Assembly: GCA_021789095.1 (NCBI GenBank)
Contig: JAJYJX010000029.1
Location: 1 to 17,640, forward strand
DNA: 17,640 bases
Direction of reading: 5' to 3'
Origin: a bacterium
GTDB taxonomy: Bacteria; JAMCPX01
Positions 3,997-9,589 of the stretch are shown here, in pieces. Position 1 is the first letter of the stretch. Each line of letters begins with the position of its first letter. Under the pieces are notes generated by a model that saw nothing but the letters and a program-made list of their open reading frames with translations, was not told where the DNA came from and searched no databases. Made by a program: the position numbers and the translations under genes.

Positions 3997-4651
3997 CCTG
4001 TTTGTTGTTTTCCTTTATGATAAATTTATCAGGCATATAATGAAATCTTCTTGAGAATTTAGATATAAACACATGTTGGATCTCCTCCATCTGGATCATC
4101 TTCCTTGTTAAGAGGGTCAGGTTTGTTACCCGAGCTTCTTTAATGCCGCAGGTCTCTATGGTCTTAAAGAGATCAAGATCGTTCGACACATTCAGGGCAA
4201 ACCCGTGCGTTGAGATCCCCTTCTGTATCCTCATGCCCACGAAGCCTATCTTGCAGCCGGATACCCACAAACCAGGCTCAGCACCCTTTTCAGATTTAAC
4301 ACCAAACCCAGAGAGGACATCAGCCATCGTGTCAACAATACCCAACAGCAGATCCAGAGGCATGTTTGATAGCTTCATCACAGGATACCCCACAAGCTGT
4401 CCGTTGTTATGTACAACCGCGCCACCCCCGCGATCAACATGAACTACGGATATGCCCTTTCTCTTTATGTAACCAGTATCAACAATGCTGTGCTCGCTGC
4501 CATCCGATCCAATCGTTATAACAGGATTATATTCTACAAAGATGAGAGCGTCATTTTCACCGTGTTCAACTTCATCTCTCACGTTATGCATAACTTCCAT
4601 TGTCGAATTATAATCCATGGTGTTGAGTTCGATGATGCGGAGTTTTTTCAT
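3983..4651 (-). CDS. lipB: Octanoyl-[ACP]:protein N-octanoyltransferase
   Basis: Moves an octanoyl group from acyl carrier protein to the lipoyl-domain lysine of target proteins, the step before LipA. The 222-residue length fits the family. Seen: the substrate-loop signature DRGGGAVVHNNGQLVGYPV, close to the usual RGG-T-x-HGPGQ-Y-P, with NNG in place of GPG. The catalytic Lys134 lies in GCKIGFVG, STHGFALNV falls at 147-155, and the catalytic Cys168 is in IETCGI. The ATG overlaps the lpd stop by four bases (ATGA), and a Shine-Dalgarno AAAGGA sits six bases upstream inside lpd, indicating translational coupling. The gene in turn overlaps lipA by 14 bp. The position at the end of a 2-oxoacid dehydrogenase operon suggests its main target is the E2 encoded upstream. 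Confidence 0.93.
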   Translation of the reverse strand: MKKLRIIELNTMDYNSTMEVMHNVRDEVEHGENDALIFVEYNPVITIGSDGSEHSIVDTGYIKRKGISVVHVDRGGGAVVHNNGQLVGYPVMKLSNMPLDLLLGIVDTMADVLSGFGVKSEKGAEPGLWVSGCKIGFVGMRIQKGISTHGFALNVSNDLDLFKTIETCGIKEARVTNLTLLTRKMIQMEEIQHVFISKFSRRFHYMPDKFIIKENNKQDDKT

Positions 4652-6054
4652 AGTGTTCCTTTCTTCAGTGTATGGTGCGACAGTCTATCTGCAGCCCATG
4701 CTGATTCAGCAATCCCCTCTGAAAAGCTCGGGTGGGCGAAAACAGCCCTTCTGAGTTCATCAATGGTGATCTCCCCTGCCATACCTGCTGTAAATAGGGA
4801 TACAAGTTCATAGGCAGACTCTCCTGCAATTGAAGCACCCAGCACCAGTCCATACTTTTTATCGGATAAGATTTTTATAAAACCCGCAGGTTCTCCATGC
4901 ACAAGGGCCATGGGACTGTTGGCAAGATCAAATATCCCTGTTCTGACTTCCATACCTGCCTTTTGTGCTGACTTTTCATCCATGCCCACCTGGGCAACAG
5001 GCGGTTTGGAATACACGACAGAGGGCACGAGCAGAGGTTCAAAAACCTTGTTCTGTCCGAGCATATTCTCCACTGCAATCATGCCCTGGTGAAATGCAGC
5101 ATGGGCAAGAAGCTTTATACCGTTAATGTCGCCTGCTGCATATACATTATCCACGCTGGTACGCATTGCTCTGTTCACGTCGACCCAATCCTTTGTTGTT
5201 GACACACCAACAGCTTCCAATCCAAGTCCAGCAGTATTGGGCTTTCTCCCTGTGACAACAAAGGCTCTATCAACATCGACCGAAGTGACATTGCCTGCCC
5301 GGGTGCCGGAAGAAGGCTCAAGCCCGAGTTTAATACCTTTTCTTGATGCGGAGGCGCTGGATACTTTATGGGACAATATGACATCTATACCAAGCTTTCC
5401 CATGAGATCCTTTTCATAGAAACTGATATCGGAATCCATAAGCGGCAGCAGCCTGTCCATCAACTCCACGATAACAACCTTCTTCGCTCCGAACGACTTT
5501 AGTATTGTCGCATATTCAATGCCGATAGCACCGCCGCCTATTATTGCAACCCTTTCCGGCACATCGTGCATTGTAAAGATGCCATCGCTTGAAAAGATCC
5601 CTTCTTGCCGAATACCCTCAATATCAGGCAGAGAAGGAATGGAACCTGTTGCAATAAGAATAAATTTTGCGCTAACAGCCTGTCTGCCACTGATTTTAAT
5701 GGTATACCTGTCGATGAACTGTGCCCTGCCCTTGATCACTTCAACCCTGTTTGAATCAAGCAGTGCCCCGATGCCCGACTTGATATAGGTAACGATATCA
5801 TTCATCCTTGACATGGCTGCTTTAAGATCGAGACTGCACGTTATCCCCAGACCCATGTCGGTCCATTTTTCTTGAAAAAGGATGGGCGCAGATACCTCAA
5901 GCAAGGCCTTTGTCGGTATGCATCCCCGGTTTGTGCACACACCGCCAAGCTCATCCATCTCAACAACAGCTGCTTTCGCACCAAGCTGGGAAGCCCGTAT
6001 GCCTGCAAGGTAACCTGCAGGACCTCCTCCGATTATACAAATATCATAATCCAT
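4648..6054 (-). CDS. lpd: Dihydrolipoyl dehydrogenase (E3)
   Basis: Flavoprotein that reoxidises the dihydrolipoyl group of E2 and passes electrons to NAD+. With the ATG at 6054 it is 468 residues. Seen: the FAD-binding GGGPAG near residue 9, the redox-active disulfide Cys40/Cys45 in GGVCTNRGCIPTK, the NAD-binding GGGAIGIEYA around residue 170, the second FAD motif AAGDING, and the C-terminal active-site dyad in FAHPSFSEG. The frame is open back to a TTG at 6087, but the extra 11 residues (MRIRTCYRVKS) precede the normal family N-terminus. A weak Shine-Dalgarno (GGGTGA, 6060-6065) fits the ATG at 6054, so I use that start. It overlaps the E2 end by 11 bases and lipB by four. It is likely the dedicated E3 of this complex, and could also serve other lipoyl systems. 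Confidence 0.95.
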   Translation of the reverse strand: MDYDICIIGGGPAGYLAGIRASQLGAKAAVVEMDELGGVCTNRGCIPTKALLEVSAPILFQEKWTDMGLGITCSLDLKAAMSRMNDIVTYIKSGIGALLDSNRVEVIKGRAQFIDRYTIKISGRQAVSAKFILIATGSIPSLPDIEGIRQEGIFSSDGIFTMHDVPERVAIIGGGAIGIEYATILKSFGAKKVVIVELMDRLLPLMDSDISFYEKDLMGKLGIDVILSHKVSSASASRKGIKLGLEPSSGTRAGNVTSVDVDRAFVVTGRKPNTAGLGLEAVGVSTTKDWVDVNRAMRTSVDNVYAAGDINGIKLLAHAAFHQGMIAVENMLGQNKVFEPLLVPSVVYSKPPVAQVGMDEKSAQKAGMEVRTGIFDLANSPMALVHGEPAGFIKILSDKKYGLVLGASIAGESAYELVSLFTAGMAGEITIDELRRAVFAHPSFSEGIAESAWAADRLSHHTLKKGTL

Positions 6055-7444
6055 ACTTTTCACCCGGTAACATGTGCGGATTCTCAATGTACTGCTTTAT
6101 GGTAAACAGGAACTGCGCCGCAGGAGCACCGTCTATGATCCTGTGATCAAATGTCAGGCTCAGGATCATTGTTGATACAATCCCGATTCTGTCCTCCATG
6201 ACCCACGGCTTCTGAACAATCCTTCCAATGCCGAGAGTGGCCGATTGCGGCGGGTTGATTATGGGAGTAAACATATCAATGCCGTAAGCGCCGAGATTTG
6301 TCACCGTAAATGTGCCTCTCGAAAGTTCTTCAAGCGTGAGTTTTCCCGTCCTTGCTTTTTCTATCAATTCCTTTGATTCCCTCGAGATCCGGACAATGTT
6401 TTTTTTATCGGCATCTGCAACGGCCGGGACGATCAAGCCGCCTTCAACTGCTACACCAATGCCTATATTGATACTATTATAAAGCCTGATCCCTTTATCA
6501 TCGAGCGAGGCATTTGCAAGCGGATGCTTCCTGAGTGCCATCGCAACAATTTTTACAAGTATATCGTTTATCGTGACTTTATCGGAAGGGTATTTCCGTC
6601 CCATGTCGTCCTTAAGTTTGATCAGTTCTTCAGCAACAACCTCCATGCCAAGCGTTACGGGCGCAGATGTATGCGCGCTGTAGCTCATTCTCTCTGCAAC
6701 AGCCCTTCTCATATCTGAAAGCGGCAGCAGTGTCGAAGCCATATCTGCTGAGGGGACCGATGCACTGAAATCGATAACATCCTGCGCATATATCTTTCTG
6801 TCCCCTGCTGACCGTGCAACCTGTTCGATTGCTACGCCGTATTGCCCTGCAATCTTCCTTGCATAAGGTGTTGCAGGCTGCTGTTTGACCTCCTGCGGCT
6901 CGTAGTTTGTTACATCCGACTCGGTGATCCTTCCGCCGGGACCCGTACCCCTGACCATGGAGAGATCAATGCCTTTTTCCTTTGCAAGCTTCTTTGCCGC
7001 AGGGCTGGCCTTGATCTCCTGAAGCTTATCAATAGGTGATTTGTCATTGCGAGTGGCGCCCTGGCGCCGCGAAGCAATCCCTTGTTTTGGGGAGATTACT
7101 TCGTCGCCTTGTTCCTCGTAATGACTTTCTGAAACTTCCTGTGTTTGCTTAATTGCAGACCTATCAATCTCGTATACAGGCGGTTTTATGTCGGGCAGGG
7201 GATCATCCCTGTCGCCTATGAGTCCTACAATGCCTGATACAGGGACGATCGAACCCGGTTGCGCATACACGAACCGCAGGTAACCCGATGCCTTTGCCTC
7301 AACATCTATGGTTACCTTTTCCGTTGAGATCTGAAACAGCGGCTCGCCCTCTTTCACATGATCACCTGTGTTTTTGTACCACCTGATAATCCTGCCTTTC
7401 TTCATAACAAGACCGAGTTTTGGCATCAAAACCTTGGAGATCAT
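6044..7444 (-). CDS. 2-oxoacid/acetoin dehydrogenase complex E2, dihydrolipoamide acyltransferase
   Basis: Core subunit that takes the acyl group from E1 on a swinging lipoyl arm and passes it to CoA. Domains in the 466 residues: a lipoyl domain at 1-78 with modified Lys43 (STEKVTID); a long linker; a first peripheral-subunit-binding domain at about 146-181 (GTGPGGRITESDV); a second, more divergent one at about 191-226 (ATPYARKIAG... QDVIDF); and a catalytic domain from about 240 to the end with His434 and Asp438 in DHRIIDG. Residues about 107-134 of the linker are encoded by an 83-bp palindromic repeat, kept in frame. The Shine-Dalgarno is poor (AGGG), and a second copy of the repeat ends 14 bases upstream of the ATG. 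The family match is firm; the acyl substrate (acetyl from acetoin or pyruvate, or another acyl group) is not determined. Confidence 0.93.
   Translation of the reverse strand: MISKVLMPKLGLVMKKGRIIRWYKNTGDHVKEGEPLFQISTEKVTIDVEAKASGYLRFVYAQPGSIVPVSGIVGLIGDRDDPLPDIKPPVYEIDRSAIKQTQEVSESHYEEQGDEVISPKQGIASRRQGATRNDKSPIDKLQEIKASPAAKKLAKEKGIDLSMVRGTGPGGRITESDVTNYEPQEVKQQPATPYARKIAGQYGVAIEQVARSAGDRKIYAQDVIDFSASVPSADMASTLLPLSDMRRAVAERMSYSAHTSAPVTLGMEVVAEELIKLKDDMGRKYPSDKVTINDILVKIVAMALRKHPLANASLDDKGIRLYNSINIGIGVAVEGGLIVPAVADADKKNIVRISRESKELIEKARTGKLTLEELSRGTFTVTNLGAYGIDMFTPIINPPQSATLGIGRIVQKPWVMEDRIGIVSTMILSLTFDHRIIDGAPAAQFLFTIKQYIENPHMLPGEKYGL
7043..7125. repeat. 83-bp palindromic repeat, copy A, inside the E2 coding sequence
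   Basis: The ends are GTCATTGCGAG and CTCGTAATGAC, an inverted pair with one mismatch. Inside are GGCGCC-CT-GGCGCC, a self-complementary hairpin, and CGAAGCAATC facing GATTACTTCG, again one mismatch from perfect. It is exactly as long as copy B at 7459-7541 and shares its first 37 bases without a change, in opposite orientation. It contributes about 28 codons in frame to the flexible linker of E2. GTCATTGCGAG/GAAGCAATC repeats are common in several bacterial phyla, from memory. Confidence 0.93.
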
Positions 7445-7458
7445 ACGGCTACCCTGCT

Positions 7459-7541
7459 GTCATTGCGAGGAGCATAACGACGAAGCAATCCCACAATACC
7501 GGTAGATTGCTTCGCGGCGCCAGGGCGCCACTCGCAATGAC
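7459..7541. repeat. 83-bp palindromic repeat, copy B, between the E1-beta and E2 genes
   Basis: Perfect 11-bp terminal inverted repeats (GTCATTGCGAG / CTCGCAATGAC), an inner 10-bp inverted pair (CGAAGCAATC / GATTGCTTCG) and a doubled GGCGCC. It fills most of the 131-bp gap between the E1-beta stop and the E2 start. It encodes no transposase, so it is a non-autonomous, MITE- or REP-like element. It is inverted relative to copy A; because its stems are fully paired it looks like the less decayed of the two. Confidence 0.93.
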
Positions 7542-7575: not shown

Positions 7576-8553
7576 TCATCCCAGTATCTGCTTTACAGCA
7601 TCCGCTATGCCCTGTTCTGTAGGGTACATTACCTCTTCAAGTGCAGGAGAAAATGGTATGGGGCAGTCTGCGCTTCCGAGCCTTTTTACAGGTGCATCAA
7701 GATAATCAAGAGCCTCTTCTGCAACCCTTGCTGCGATCTCAGCGCCTATGCCTCCTGTCCTGCTTCCTTCCTCAACCGTGACAAGCCTCTTGGTCTTTTT
7801 GACGGAATTGATGATCGAATCCATATCCAGAGGGTATAATGTTCTCGGATCCACAACCTCTGCCTCTATGCCCTCTGAAGCAAGTATATCGGCTGCCATC
7901 AACGCTTTTTTAATCATCGCAAGAACGGCAACTATAGTTACGTCCTTGCCCTGCCTCTTAATATCAGCCTTGCCGAAAGGTACCGTATAGTCTCCTTCAG
8001 GCACTTCGCCGCCCTCGTAGTAAAGCATCTTGTGCTCAAAAAACAGAACGGGATCATCCATCCTTATCGCTGTTTTCAAAAGTCCCTTCATATCGTAAGG
8101 CGTTGAAGGCACCGCAATCTTTATGCCCGGTATGTGCATGAATATGGCTTCAGGACTCTGAGAGTGCTGTGCACCTGCGGACAGTCCCGCACCCGACGGC
8201 GTCCTTATAACCATCGGTACTTTTGCCTGTCCTGATGTCATGAACCTTATCTTTGCCATTGTATTAACAATAGGATCCATTGCATCCATAAGGAAATCGG
8301 CAAACATGATCTCCGCAACAGGCCTCATGCCGGTCAGTGCAGCGCCAATTGCAGCACCGATGATTGCATTCTCGCTGATAGGAGTGTTCCTAACACGCTC
8401 CGCCCCGAACTCTTCTACAAGCCCGTCTGTAACACCGAATGTGGCCTGCTCAAGGTCTTCCCCGAGGAGGAACACGCTGGGGTCCCTTCTCATCTCTTCT
8501 ATGAGCGCCTCTCGTATTGCATCCTTGCCGGTTATCAACCTTGCGTTAGCCAT
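7576..8553 (-). CDS. 2-oxoacid/acetoin dehydrogenase E1 component, beta subunit
   Basis: Beta half of the thiamine-diphosphate-dependent E1, which decarboxylates the 2-oxoacid (or cleaves acetoin) and reductively acylates E2. The 325-residue length and motifs are typical: GEDLEQATFG at 31-40; the conserved Glu61 in PISENAIIGAAIG, which activates thiamine diphosphate; MFADF at 83-87; SGAGLSAGAQHSQ at 120-132 with active-site His130; and the C-terminal transketolase-type domain with VEEGSRTGGIGAEI. The ATG is preceded by a strong Shine-Dalgarno (AGGAGG). It lies 79 bp after the E1-alpha gene, a gap holding a short TTTTGAG repeat, and 131 bp before E2, a gap filled by a palindromic repeat. It would form an alpha2-beta2 heterotetramer with the neighbouring alpha subunit. 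Family certain; substrate unknown. Confidence 0.95.
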   Translation of the reverse strand: MANARLITGKDAIREALIEEMRRDPSVFLLGEDLEQATFGVTDGLVEEFGAERVRNTPISENAIIGAAIGAALTGMRPVAEIMFADFLMDAMDPIVNTMAKIRFMTSGQAKVPMVIRTPSGAGLSAGAQHSQSPEAIFMHIPGIKIAVPSTPYDMKGLLKTAIRMDDPVLFFEHKMLYYEGGEVPEGDYTVPFGKADIKRQGKDVTIVAVLAMIKKALMAADILASEGIEAEVVDPRTLYPLDMDSIINSVKKTKRLVTVEEGSRTGGIGAEIAARVAEEALDYLDAPVKRLGSADCPIPFSPALEEVMYPTEQGIADAVKQILG

Positions 8554-8604
8554 GATTACCTCCTGTGACTCTTGAATTTTAAATCTTCAATTCTGAGTTG
8601 CAAC

Positions 8605-8625
8605 TTTTGAGTTTTGAGCTTTGAG
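8605..8625. repeat. Tandem heptamer TTTTGAG repeat in the E1-alpha/E1-beta gap
   Basis: Three heptamers in a row, TTTTGAG, TTTTGAG and CTTTGAG, preceded by a related CTGAGTTGCAAC. They occupy the spacer between the two E1 genes, upstream of the E1-beta Shine-Dalgarno. On the transcript this reads as an A/C-rich unstructured segment. I know no function; it may be simple slippage sequence. Confidence 0.6.
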
Positions 8626-8632
8626 TTTATCT

Positions 8633-9589
8633 TTACACATACACGTTCTGTGTCAGTACTGCCGGATCCGGCATCGGGCTTTCTGCTGCGAACTGAACGG
8701 CATCTTCTATCTCTTTCAGGATCTTTTTCTCAATTGCATCGATCTCTTTATTGTCCGCCTTGAATTCCTTCAGAAGCCTTGACTTGAAAAGTTTTACAGG
8801 ATCCCGCTTCTCCATCCATTCTTCAACCTCTTCCCTGGTCCTGTATGTCTCAGGGTCTCCGATATGATGGCCGTGAAATCTGTATGTTTTTGCTTCGATA
8901 AGCGACGGCCCCTTGCCGTCCCTTGCCCTTTTAACTGCCTCTGAAACAGCATCATAGACCTTAAGCACATCCTGGCCGTCAACACTGACACCAGGCATGT
9001 CATAAGCCTGCGCCCTTGTCGATATGTCTTTTATCCTCATATGCTTTGACTGTGGTGTTGCTTCTCCATAAAGATTGTTTTCGCAGATAAATATATTCGG
9101 TAATGCCCATACAGATGCCAGGTTCAAAGCCTCATGGAACTTGCCCTGGTTCGCGGCTCCATCACCAAAGAAAGTCAGGATAACCTTCTTGTTATTCTTA
9201 AGCTTTGCCGACAGCGCGGCTCCGTTTGCAACGATAATCCCCGCGGCAACAATGCCGTTTGCTCCGATGCTGCCCACGCTCATGTCTGTTATGTGAAGGC
9301 ATCCTCCGCGTCCCTTGCAGTAACCTGTTTCCCTTGCGAAAAGCTCCGCCATCATGCGGTCTGTCCTTGCACCTTTTGCCATAAGGTTGGCATGCCCCCT
9401 GTGGGTAGAGCCTATGTAATCATCTTTTTTGATTGCAGCGCATGCGCCCGCCGAAACAGCTTCCTGTCCTGATCCAAGATGGATGAACCCCGGGATATTT
9501 CCGTCTTCAAACTGTTTTTTAACTTCCTCCTCGAATGTCCTTATACGGAACATTGTTTCATAAAGGTTGAGTAGAAAACCTTTGTCCAT
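8633..9589 (-). CDS. 2-oxoacid/acetoin dehydrogenase E1 component, alpha subunit
   Basis: Alpha half of the thiamine-diphosphate-dependent E1. The 318 residues are close to the compact AcoA/PdhA-type alpha subunits. Seen: HLGSGQEA at 37-44, GSTHRGHANLMAKG at 60-73, and the thiamine-diphosphate/Mg signature beginning GDGAANQGKFHEA at 142-154 and ending with the Asn pair ENN at 170-172. The phosphorylation-loop region reads YRFHGHHIGDPE, with His and Gly where eukaryotic enzymes carry the regulated serine. The GSTHRGH and GANGIVAAG patches look more like acetoin-cleaving AcoA or generic bacterial E1-alpha than branched-chain E1, but this does not settle the substrate. A very good Shine-Dalgarno (AAGGAGG) overlaps the stop region of the SCP-2 gene 11 bp upstream, so the two genes are translated from one message. 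Confidence 0.94.
   Translation of the reverse strand: MDKGFLLNLYETMFRIRTFEEEVKKQFEDGNIPGFIHLGSGQEAVSAGACAAIKKDDYIGSTHRGHANLMAKGARTDRMMAELFARETGYCKGRGGCLHITDMSVGSIGANGIVAAGIIVANGAALSAKLKNNKKVILTFFGDGAANQGKFHEALNLASVWALPNIFICENNLYGEATPQSKHMRIKDISTRAQAYDMPGVSVDGQDVLKVYDAVSEAVKRARDGKGPSLIEAKTYRFHGHHIGDPETYRTREEVEEWMEKRDPVKLFKSRLLKEFKADNKEIDAIEKKILKEIEDAVQFAAESPMPDPAVLTQNVYV

Follow-up and report, generated by a model that had tools for sequence, protein, structure and literature searches.

In-frame insertion of palindromic elements into conserved genes is established in Rickettsia, where the extra residues lie at tolerant positions (PMC10969869, PMC3733652), and nearly half of the Rickettsia palindromic elements (RPEs) first reported were intragenic (PMC10969869). 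RPE-4 and RPE-6 are CGTC REPs, and REPs have also been described in open reading frames (ORFs) of several free-living bacteria, over half of them as dimers or groups encoding 20-30 residues; pseudouridine synthases are among the target genes, TruA being a reported host for other REPs and a sister enzyme one in R. conorii (PMC3733652). Here we analyzed a stretch of 17,640 nucleotides (the window; contig JAJYJX010000029.1) in which a palindromic repeat lies within the gene for a dihydrolipoamide acyltransferase (E2). An initial annotation of this DNA had likened the repeat to the Rickettsia insertions. The parallel stands in kind, as both are in-frame insertions, but not as membership, and intragenic REPs had already been described outside Rickettsia (PMC3733652). 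The annotation named no precedent in an E2 linker, and our literature search found none either: no report of a palindromic insertion in a dehydrogenase E2 was found among the papers searched, the main text of PMC3733652 mentions none, and a search for palindromic elements together with dihydrolipoamide gave nothing relevant.

A palindromic dimer within the E2 reading frame

The E2 gene forms an operon-like run with the genes for E1alpha, E1beta, and E3, a lipoate-ligase-like gene, and a radical SAM gene. The features considered below are as follows, in window coordinates.

4648-6043, minus strand: E3 dihydrolipoamide dehydrogenase gene, downstream of E2 (Pfam Pyr_redox_2 and Pyr_redox_dim; the listed ORF begins at an upstream start, 6087)
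6044-7444, minus strand: E2 (dihydrolipoamide acyltransferase) gene, 466 aa (ORF list and Pfam)
7043-7125, minus strand: in-frame palindromic REP dimer in E2, 83 bp, residues 107-134 (covariance model R1, 81.1 bits, E = 1.2e-17)
7043-7079, plus strand: E2-copy half-unit B, which contains a GGCGCC hairpin (identical at 37/37 bases to the matching half-unit in the spacer copy)
7094-7125, minus strand: half-unit A of the E2 copy, the GTCATTAC...GTAATC variant (pattern search; the paired A/T variant backs a hairpin of its own)
7459-7541, plus strand: second REP dimer copy, located in opposite orientation in the spacer between E1beta and E2, 14 bp before the E2 start codon (model R1, 91 bits)
7576-8553, minus strand: E1 beta subunit gene, upstream of E2 (Pfam Transket_pyr and Transketolase_C)
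8633-9589, minus strand: E1 alpha subunit gene (Pfam E1_dh)

The E2 protein is the sole match to E2 in its genome, indicating a single-copy gene. Its domains follow the order lipoyl (PF00364, residues 4-73), E3-binding (PF02817, residues 144-178), and catalytic acyltransferase (PF00198, residues 238-458), each above the cutoff. Judged by these matches, the gene is that of a 2-oxoacid dehydrogenase E2 with all three Pfam domains intact. A scan of the protein against NCBIfam matched enzyme families alone; no model of a palindromic element was among the hits. A second segment resembling an E3-binding domain follows the first at about residues 188-222 (TPYARKIAGQYGVAIEQVARSAGDRKIYAQDV).

As first annotated, the repeat falls wholly within the E2 ORF and is read through without a stop; the ORF list and the translation show its coordinates to be exact. 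Residues 107-134, encoded by the repeat, read SHYEEQGDEVISPKQGIASRRQGATRND, and the predicted tryptic peptide QTQEVSESHYEEQGDEVISPK runs across the 5′ junction of the insert. The placement of these residues, about 28 in number, in a flexible linker between the lipoyl and E3-binding domains was borne out by the Pfam boundaries and by predicted disorder: in an AlphaFold2 model made with ten sequences, residues 97-142 had a pLDDT under 50, with confident domains on both sides. We note that this model (mean pLDDT 75, pTM 0.49) is informative on local order only. The codon-usage score was positive on both flanks of the insert (28.9 and 88.3), and as RNA the E2 copy had a predicted fold of -33.7 kcal/mol (z = -5.1 against shuffled sequence). 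The insert is probably translated as 28 extra residues, and we infer that it is neutral or nearly so.

Structure and distribution of the element

The covariance model R1 was built from ten copies and matched others in the genome and family at E values as low as 1e-17. Every one of the 79 full copies read consists of two half-units set head-to-head with GTC outward, a dimer form for which R1 itself selects. In each half-unit, an outer stem of 5 bp (ATTGC/GCAAT) is followed by an internal loop and then by an inner stem with at least two pairs. Among 73 half-units, the outer stem was the standard pair in 66, ATTAC/GTAAT, with A-T in place of G-C at one position, in 5, and mismatched in 2 (Fisher P = 2e-6, an optimistic value given that related copies were entered as separate), and the inner stem retained two standard pairs in 34 of 40. 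This pairing supports a structure in which each half-unit would fold on its own. The outward tag had T or C before GTC in 59 of 70 copies and the complement after GAC in 58 of 70. The tail after GCAAT, where CGTC REPs have a CCA tail, begins with C and varies in the bases that follow. No target-site duplication was found: around 70 copies, direct flanking matches of 1-10 bases were no commoner than in shuffles.

The initial annotation held that an inserted element should have copies beyond the two in the window. The host genome contains 14 full dimers at E < 1e-6, with weaker ones beyond, and 65 more were read in five relatives, giving 79 in six family genomes; copies were most numerous in the relatives G004 and G001, and R1 had no match in G002 or G005. 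A strict half-unit pattern (GTCATTGCGAG, 10-35 bases, CGAAGCAATC) occurred in 71 of 386 sampled genomes, spread over many families, against 0 of 386 for the reversed control. Partial matches to the element, mostly covering about 40% of its length, were present in plasmids of Calothrix, Methylocystis, and others. An Rfam search of the region gave one chance match below the gathering score, and a literature search with the element sequence returned primers and unrelated papers only.

A link to Y1 (RAYT-type) transposases was not supported. Genes of this type are present in most family genomes, but only one of 18 Y1 loci had half-units near it, the others having none or a lone short motif; G002 and G005 have seven Y1 matches each, yet no R1 match. 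The one such neighborhood, in G007, is within chance by a rough estimate. It consists of a C-terminal fragment of a Y1 transposase gene at a contig end (L112:1-301, in G007:C182), with REP half-units about 145 bp downstream.

Absence of the repeat from E2 orthologues

A gap opposite residues 107-134 in aligned orthologues had been proposed as the mark of an insertion. The 28 residues are lacking in all seven family orthologues that cover the linker, among them one whose match is split in two and one truncated at the N terminus, and the insert was found in one of the eight family genomes having an E2. The spacing between the conserved YEID and SPAAK blocks is 53 residues here, or 25 minus the element, and 30-36 in the counted orthologues. 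The linker is variable in all relatives and too diverged to set the insertion junction to the base. With the residues lacking in orthologues and many other copies in existence, the view that the repeat is an inserted element and not ancestral coding sequence was upheld; on these alignments, the segment is very probably a lineage-specific repeat insertion.

Two other origins were weighed. E2 linkers are weakly constrained and vary in length, and ancestral linker sequence might have come to resemble the repeat by chance. The segment, however, shares 37 of 37 bases with half of the spacer copy, has the complete two-hairpin architecture, and is absent from orthologues, and the reversed-pattern control gave no match in 386 genomes; we count chance resemblance as already refuted by these numbers and accord it virtually no probability. 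The second is misassembly, which could have joined two repeats or put a repeat inside E2 in a draft of 203 contigs, contigs often breaking at repeats. Nevertheless, the usual short reads are longer than the 83-bp repeat, both flanks of the insert align collinearly, as one protein, to the same orthologues with the same best relatives despite the draft state of the genome, and a different assembly (G004) holds a second case of the same kind. An assembly artifact is very improbable, and we retain insertion as the origin of the segment.

The element is 83 bp long in its core, or 85 bp including both tag bases. As 83 bp does not divide into whole codons and the target site is not duplicated around the element, insertion alone would shift the frame. 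Judging from these lengths, the linker must have undergone a further net length change with or after the insertion. The 25 residues of remaining native linker are fewer than in the relatives, which fits the loss of some target sequence.

A second copy in the E1beta-E2 spacer

The spacer copy had a predicted fold of -42.5 kcal/mol (z = -7.3; z on the two strands, -7.3 and -6.0). It had been described as a near-identical noncoding copy 330 bp away. It does lie in a noncoding spacer, 333 bp from the E2 copy, but near-identity does not hold, since the copies are 82% identical (68/83) and mutually inverted. The 15 differences are confined to the first 46 bases, the last 37 being identical (37/37), a clustering with P of about 4e-5 if differences were evenly spread; the best match of any other copy read to that 37-base half was 32/37. 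Because one half is identical and the other diverged, the comparison suggests local copying or conversion between the E2 and spacer sites. The frame that stays open in the E2 copy is interrupted by a TAG in the spacer copy.

G004 has REP copies in two of the corresponding spacers, a decayed one between E1beta and E2 (L071:2756-2853) and an intact one between E1alpha and E1beta (L071:3919-3990). Since the decayed copy occupies the same position as the spacer copy of the window, the latter may be older than the E2 copy. The E1alpha-E1beta spacer of the window (8554-8632) contains TTGAGTTTTGAG-type short repeats, as does that of G004.

Capture of the element by genes

A copy was scored as captured when it lay inside an ORF of at least 100 aa with a clearly positive codon-usage score on both flanks. 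Counting intragenic copies, as the initial annotation had proposed for the host genome, gave 2 of 79 full copies across the six family genomes (E2 here and TruA in G004), with a simple codon-usage test that was trained on window genes and could miss weakly scoring genes, and with the ORF and codon-usage tests run on sequence stretches around the copies. In-frame capture is real but rare in these genomes. Most of a bacterial genome is coding, so that a count this low points to strong avoidance of genic sites or selection against insertions in them.

L183:874-1821 (G004:C55:4066-5013), minus strand: TruA (tRNA pseudouridine synthase A) gene of the relative (PF01416)

The element in this gene (G004:C55:4393-4476) is 84 bp long, is in frame, and encodes VIARSDDAGDTTKQSWGREIASPSARND. 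The loop in which it lies also holds a second, unrelated palindrome, with arms at L183:1108-1127 and 1167-1186; loop length varies, and the family orthologues are without both the element and the second palindrome. By this comparison, the predicted TruA protein is a second, independent in-frame capture.

ORFs of 100-270 aa over other copies (e.g., in C188, C194, and G001 C62) were rejected as spurious, as they had no coding signal, and in G007 C29 and G001 C33 the overlap was only with N-terminal extensions of negative score. Single half-units were also seen within larger ORFs. One lies in frame (1501-1550) in the DUF7149 region of an Eco57I-like restriction-modification protein (L269:832-3048, plus strand); the residues after it are characteristic of a different widespread repeat (CHPERSVSGVEGSK). 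Another is read as IASSSSTPRND within a poly-serine linker of a protein with a Fib_succ_major domain (L268:598-1767, minus strand). A third, read as VIARSINNEAISNLEKAV, stands near residue 500, just past the membrane part, of an O-antigen ligase/TPR protein (L257:556-3033, minus strand); it may be an insertion turned TPR-like helix, or chance.

Discussion

Taken together, these data make it highly probable that a dispersed REP-like dimer inserted in the E2 linker and was kept in frame, the product gaining 28 residues. The 83-bp segment would be one copy of a dispersed, nonautonomous REP-like element of two hairpin half-units with (C/T)GTC tags outward, which would have entered the linker-coding part of E2 after the lineage split from its sequenced relatives. 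Two features presumably kept the gene intact: the insertion point is in flexible-linker sequence, and the copy is open in that phase. The copy now seen probably owes its form to local copying or conversion involving the spacer copy, 333 bp distant.

A different reading of the same locus is that the insert has been co-opted and is under selection, a longer charged linker or an mRNA hairpin altering the reach of the lipoyl arm or the expression of the complex. The E2 copy keeps open a frame in which the spacer copy carries a TAG, one hairpin copy lies within the E2 coding region and another 14 bp before the start codon, and G004 has the decayed copy at the same spacer position. Yet plain purifying selection on E2 already predicts an open frame, only one of the eight E2-bearing family genomes has the insert, and the linker is variable in all relatives; we therefore consider co-option unlikely. 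The broader idea that REP dimers are a recurrent source of linkers, through local copying and loop capture (E2 and TruA), with a role of the E2 insert in lipoyl-arm reach or complex expression, likewise seems improbable to us. Insertion of a dispersed dimer, retained in frame, is the reading we prefer. It offers a clean case, outside Rickettsia and in an uncultured lineage, of a repeat that has apparently become protein in a textbook flexible linker; the E2 linker is a place where the effect of added length is measurable, and the family-wide 2 of 79 provides a rate for comparison with Rickettsia.

Comparison with known systems

The E2 insert, and that in TruA of G004, resemble RPEs in being in-frame insertions in conserved genes. 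They differ in host, which is not Rickettsia and whose nearest named relatives are unclassified bacterial MAGs, and in frequency, with 2 of 79 copies intragenic here against nearly half of the RPEs first reported (PMC10969869). Like MITEs, the element is short, nonautonomous, and dispersed, with inverted termini; unlike them, it showed no target-site duplication in 70 copies.

The CGTC REPs (Di Nocera et al. 2013, PMC3733652) share more with it: (C/T)GTC outer tags and head-to-head dimers, A-T first stem pairs, no dedicated transposase nearby, some intragenic dimers of 20-30 residues, and a pseudouridine synthase target. The tag of that class (CGTC, or TGTC or CCTC, at one end of each unit) is present here. 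Their units have a single stem of 8-9 bp with a loop of 4-5 bases, whereas the stem of those described here is in two parts, an outer one of 5 bp and an inner one, with an internal loop between them. Since the stem plan differs, the element, as predicted from its folding, is CGTC-like and is not filed in the four families of Di Nocera et al.; no match to the phyla of CGTC REPs is claimed, as the host is placed only near unclassified MAGs. The E2 insert is a well-supported further example of a phenomenon known from Rickettsia and from free-living bacteria.
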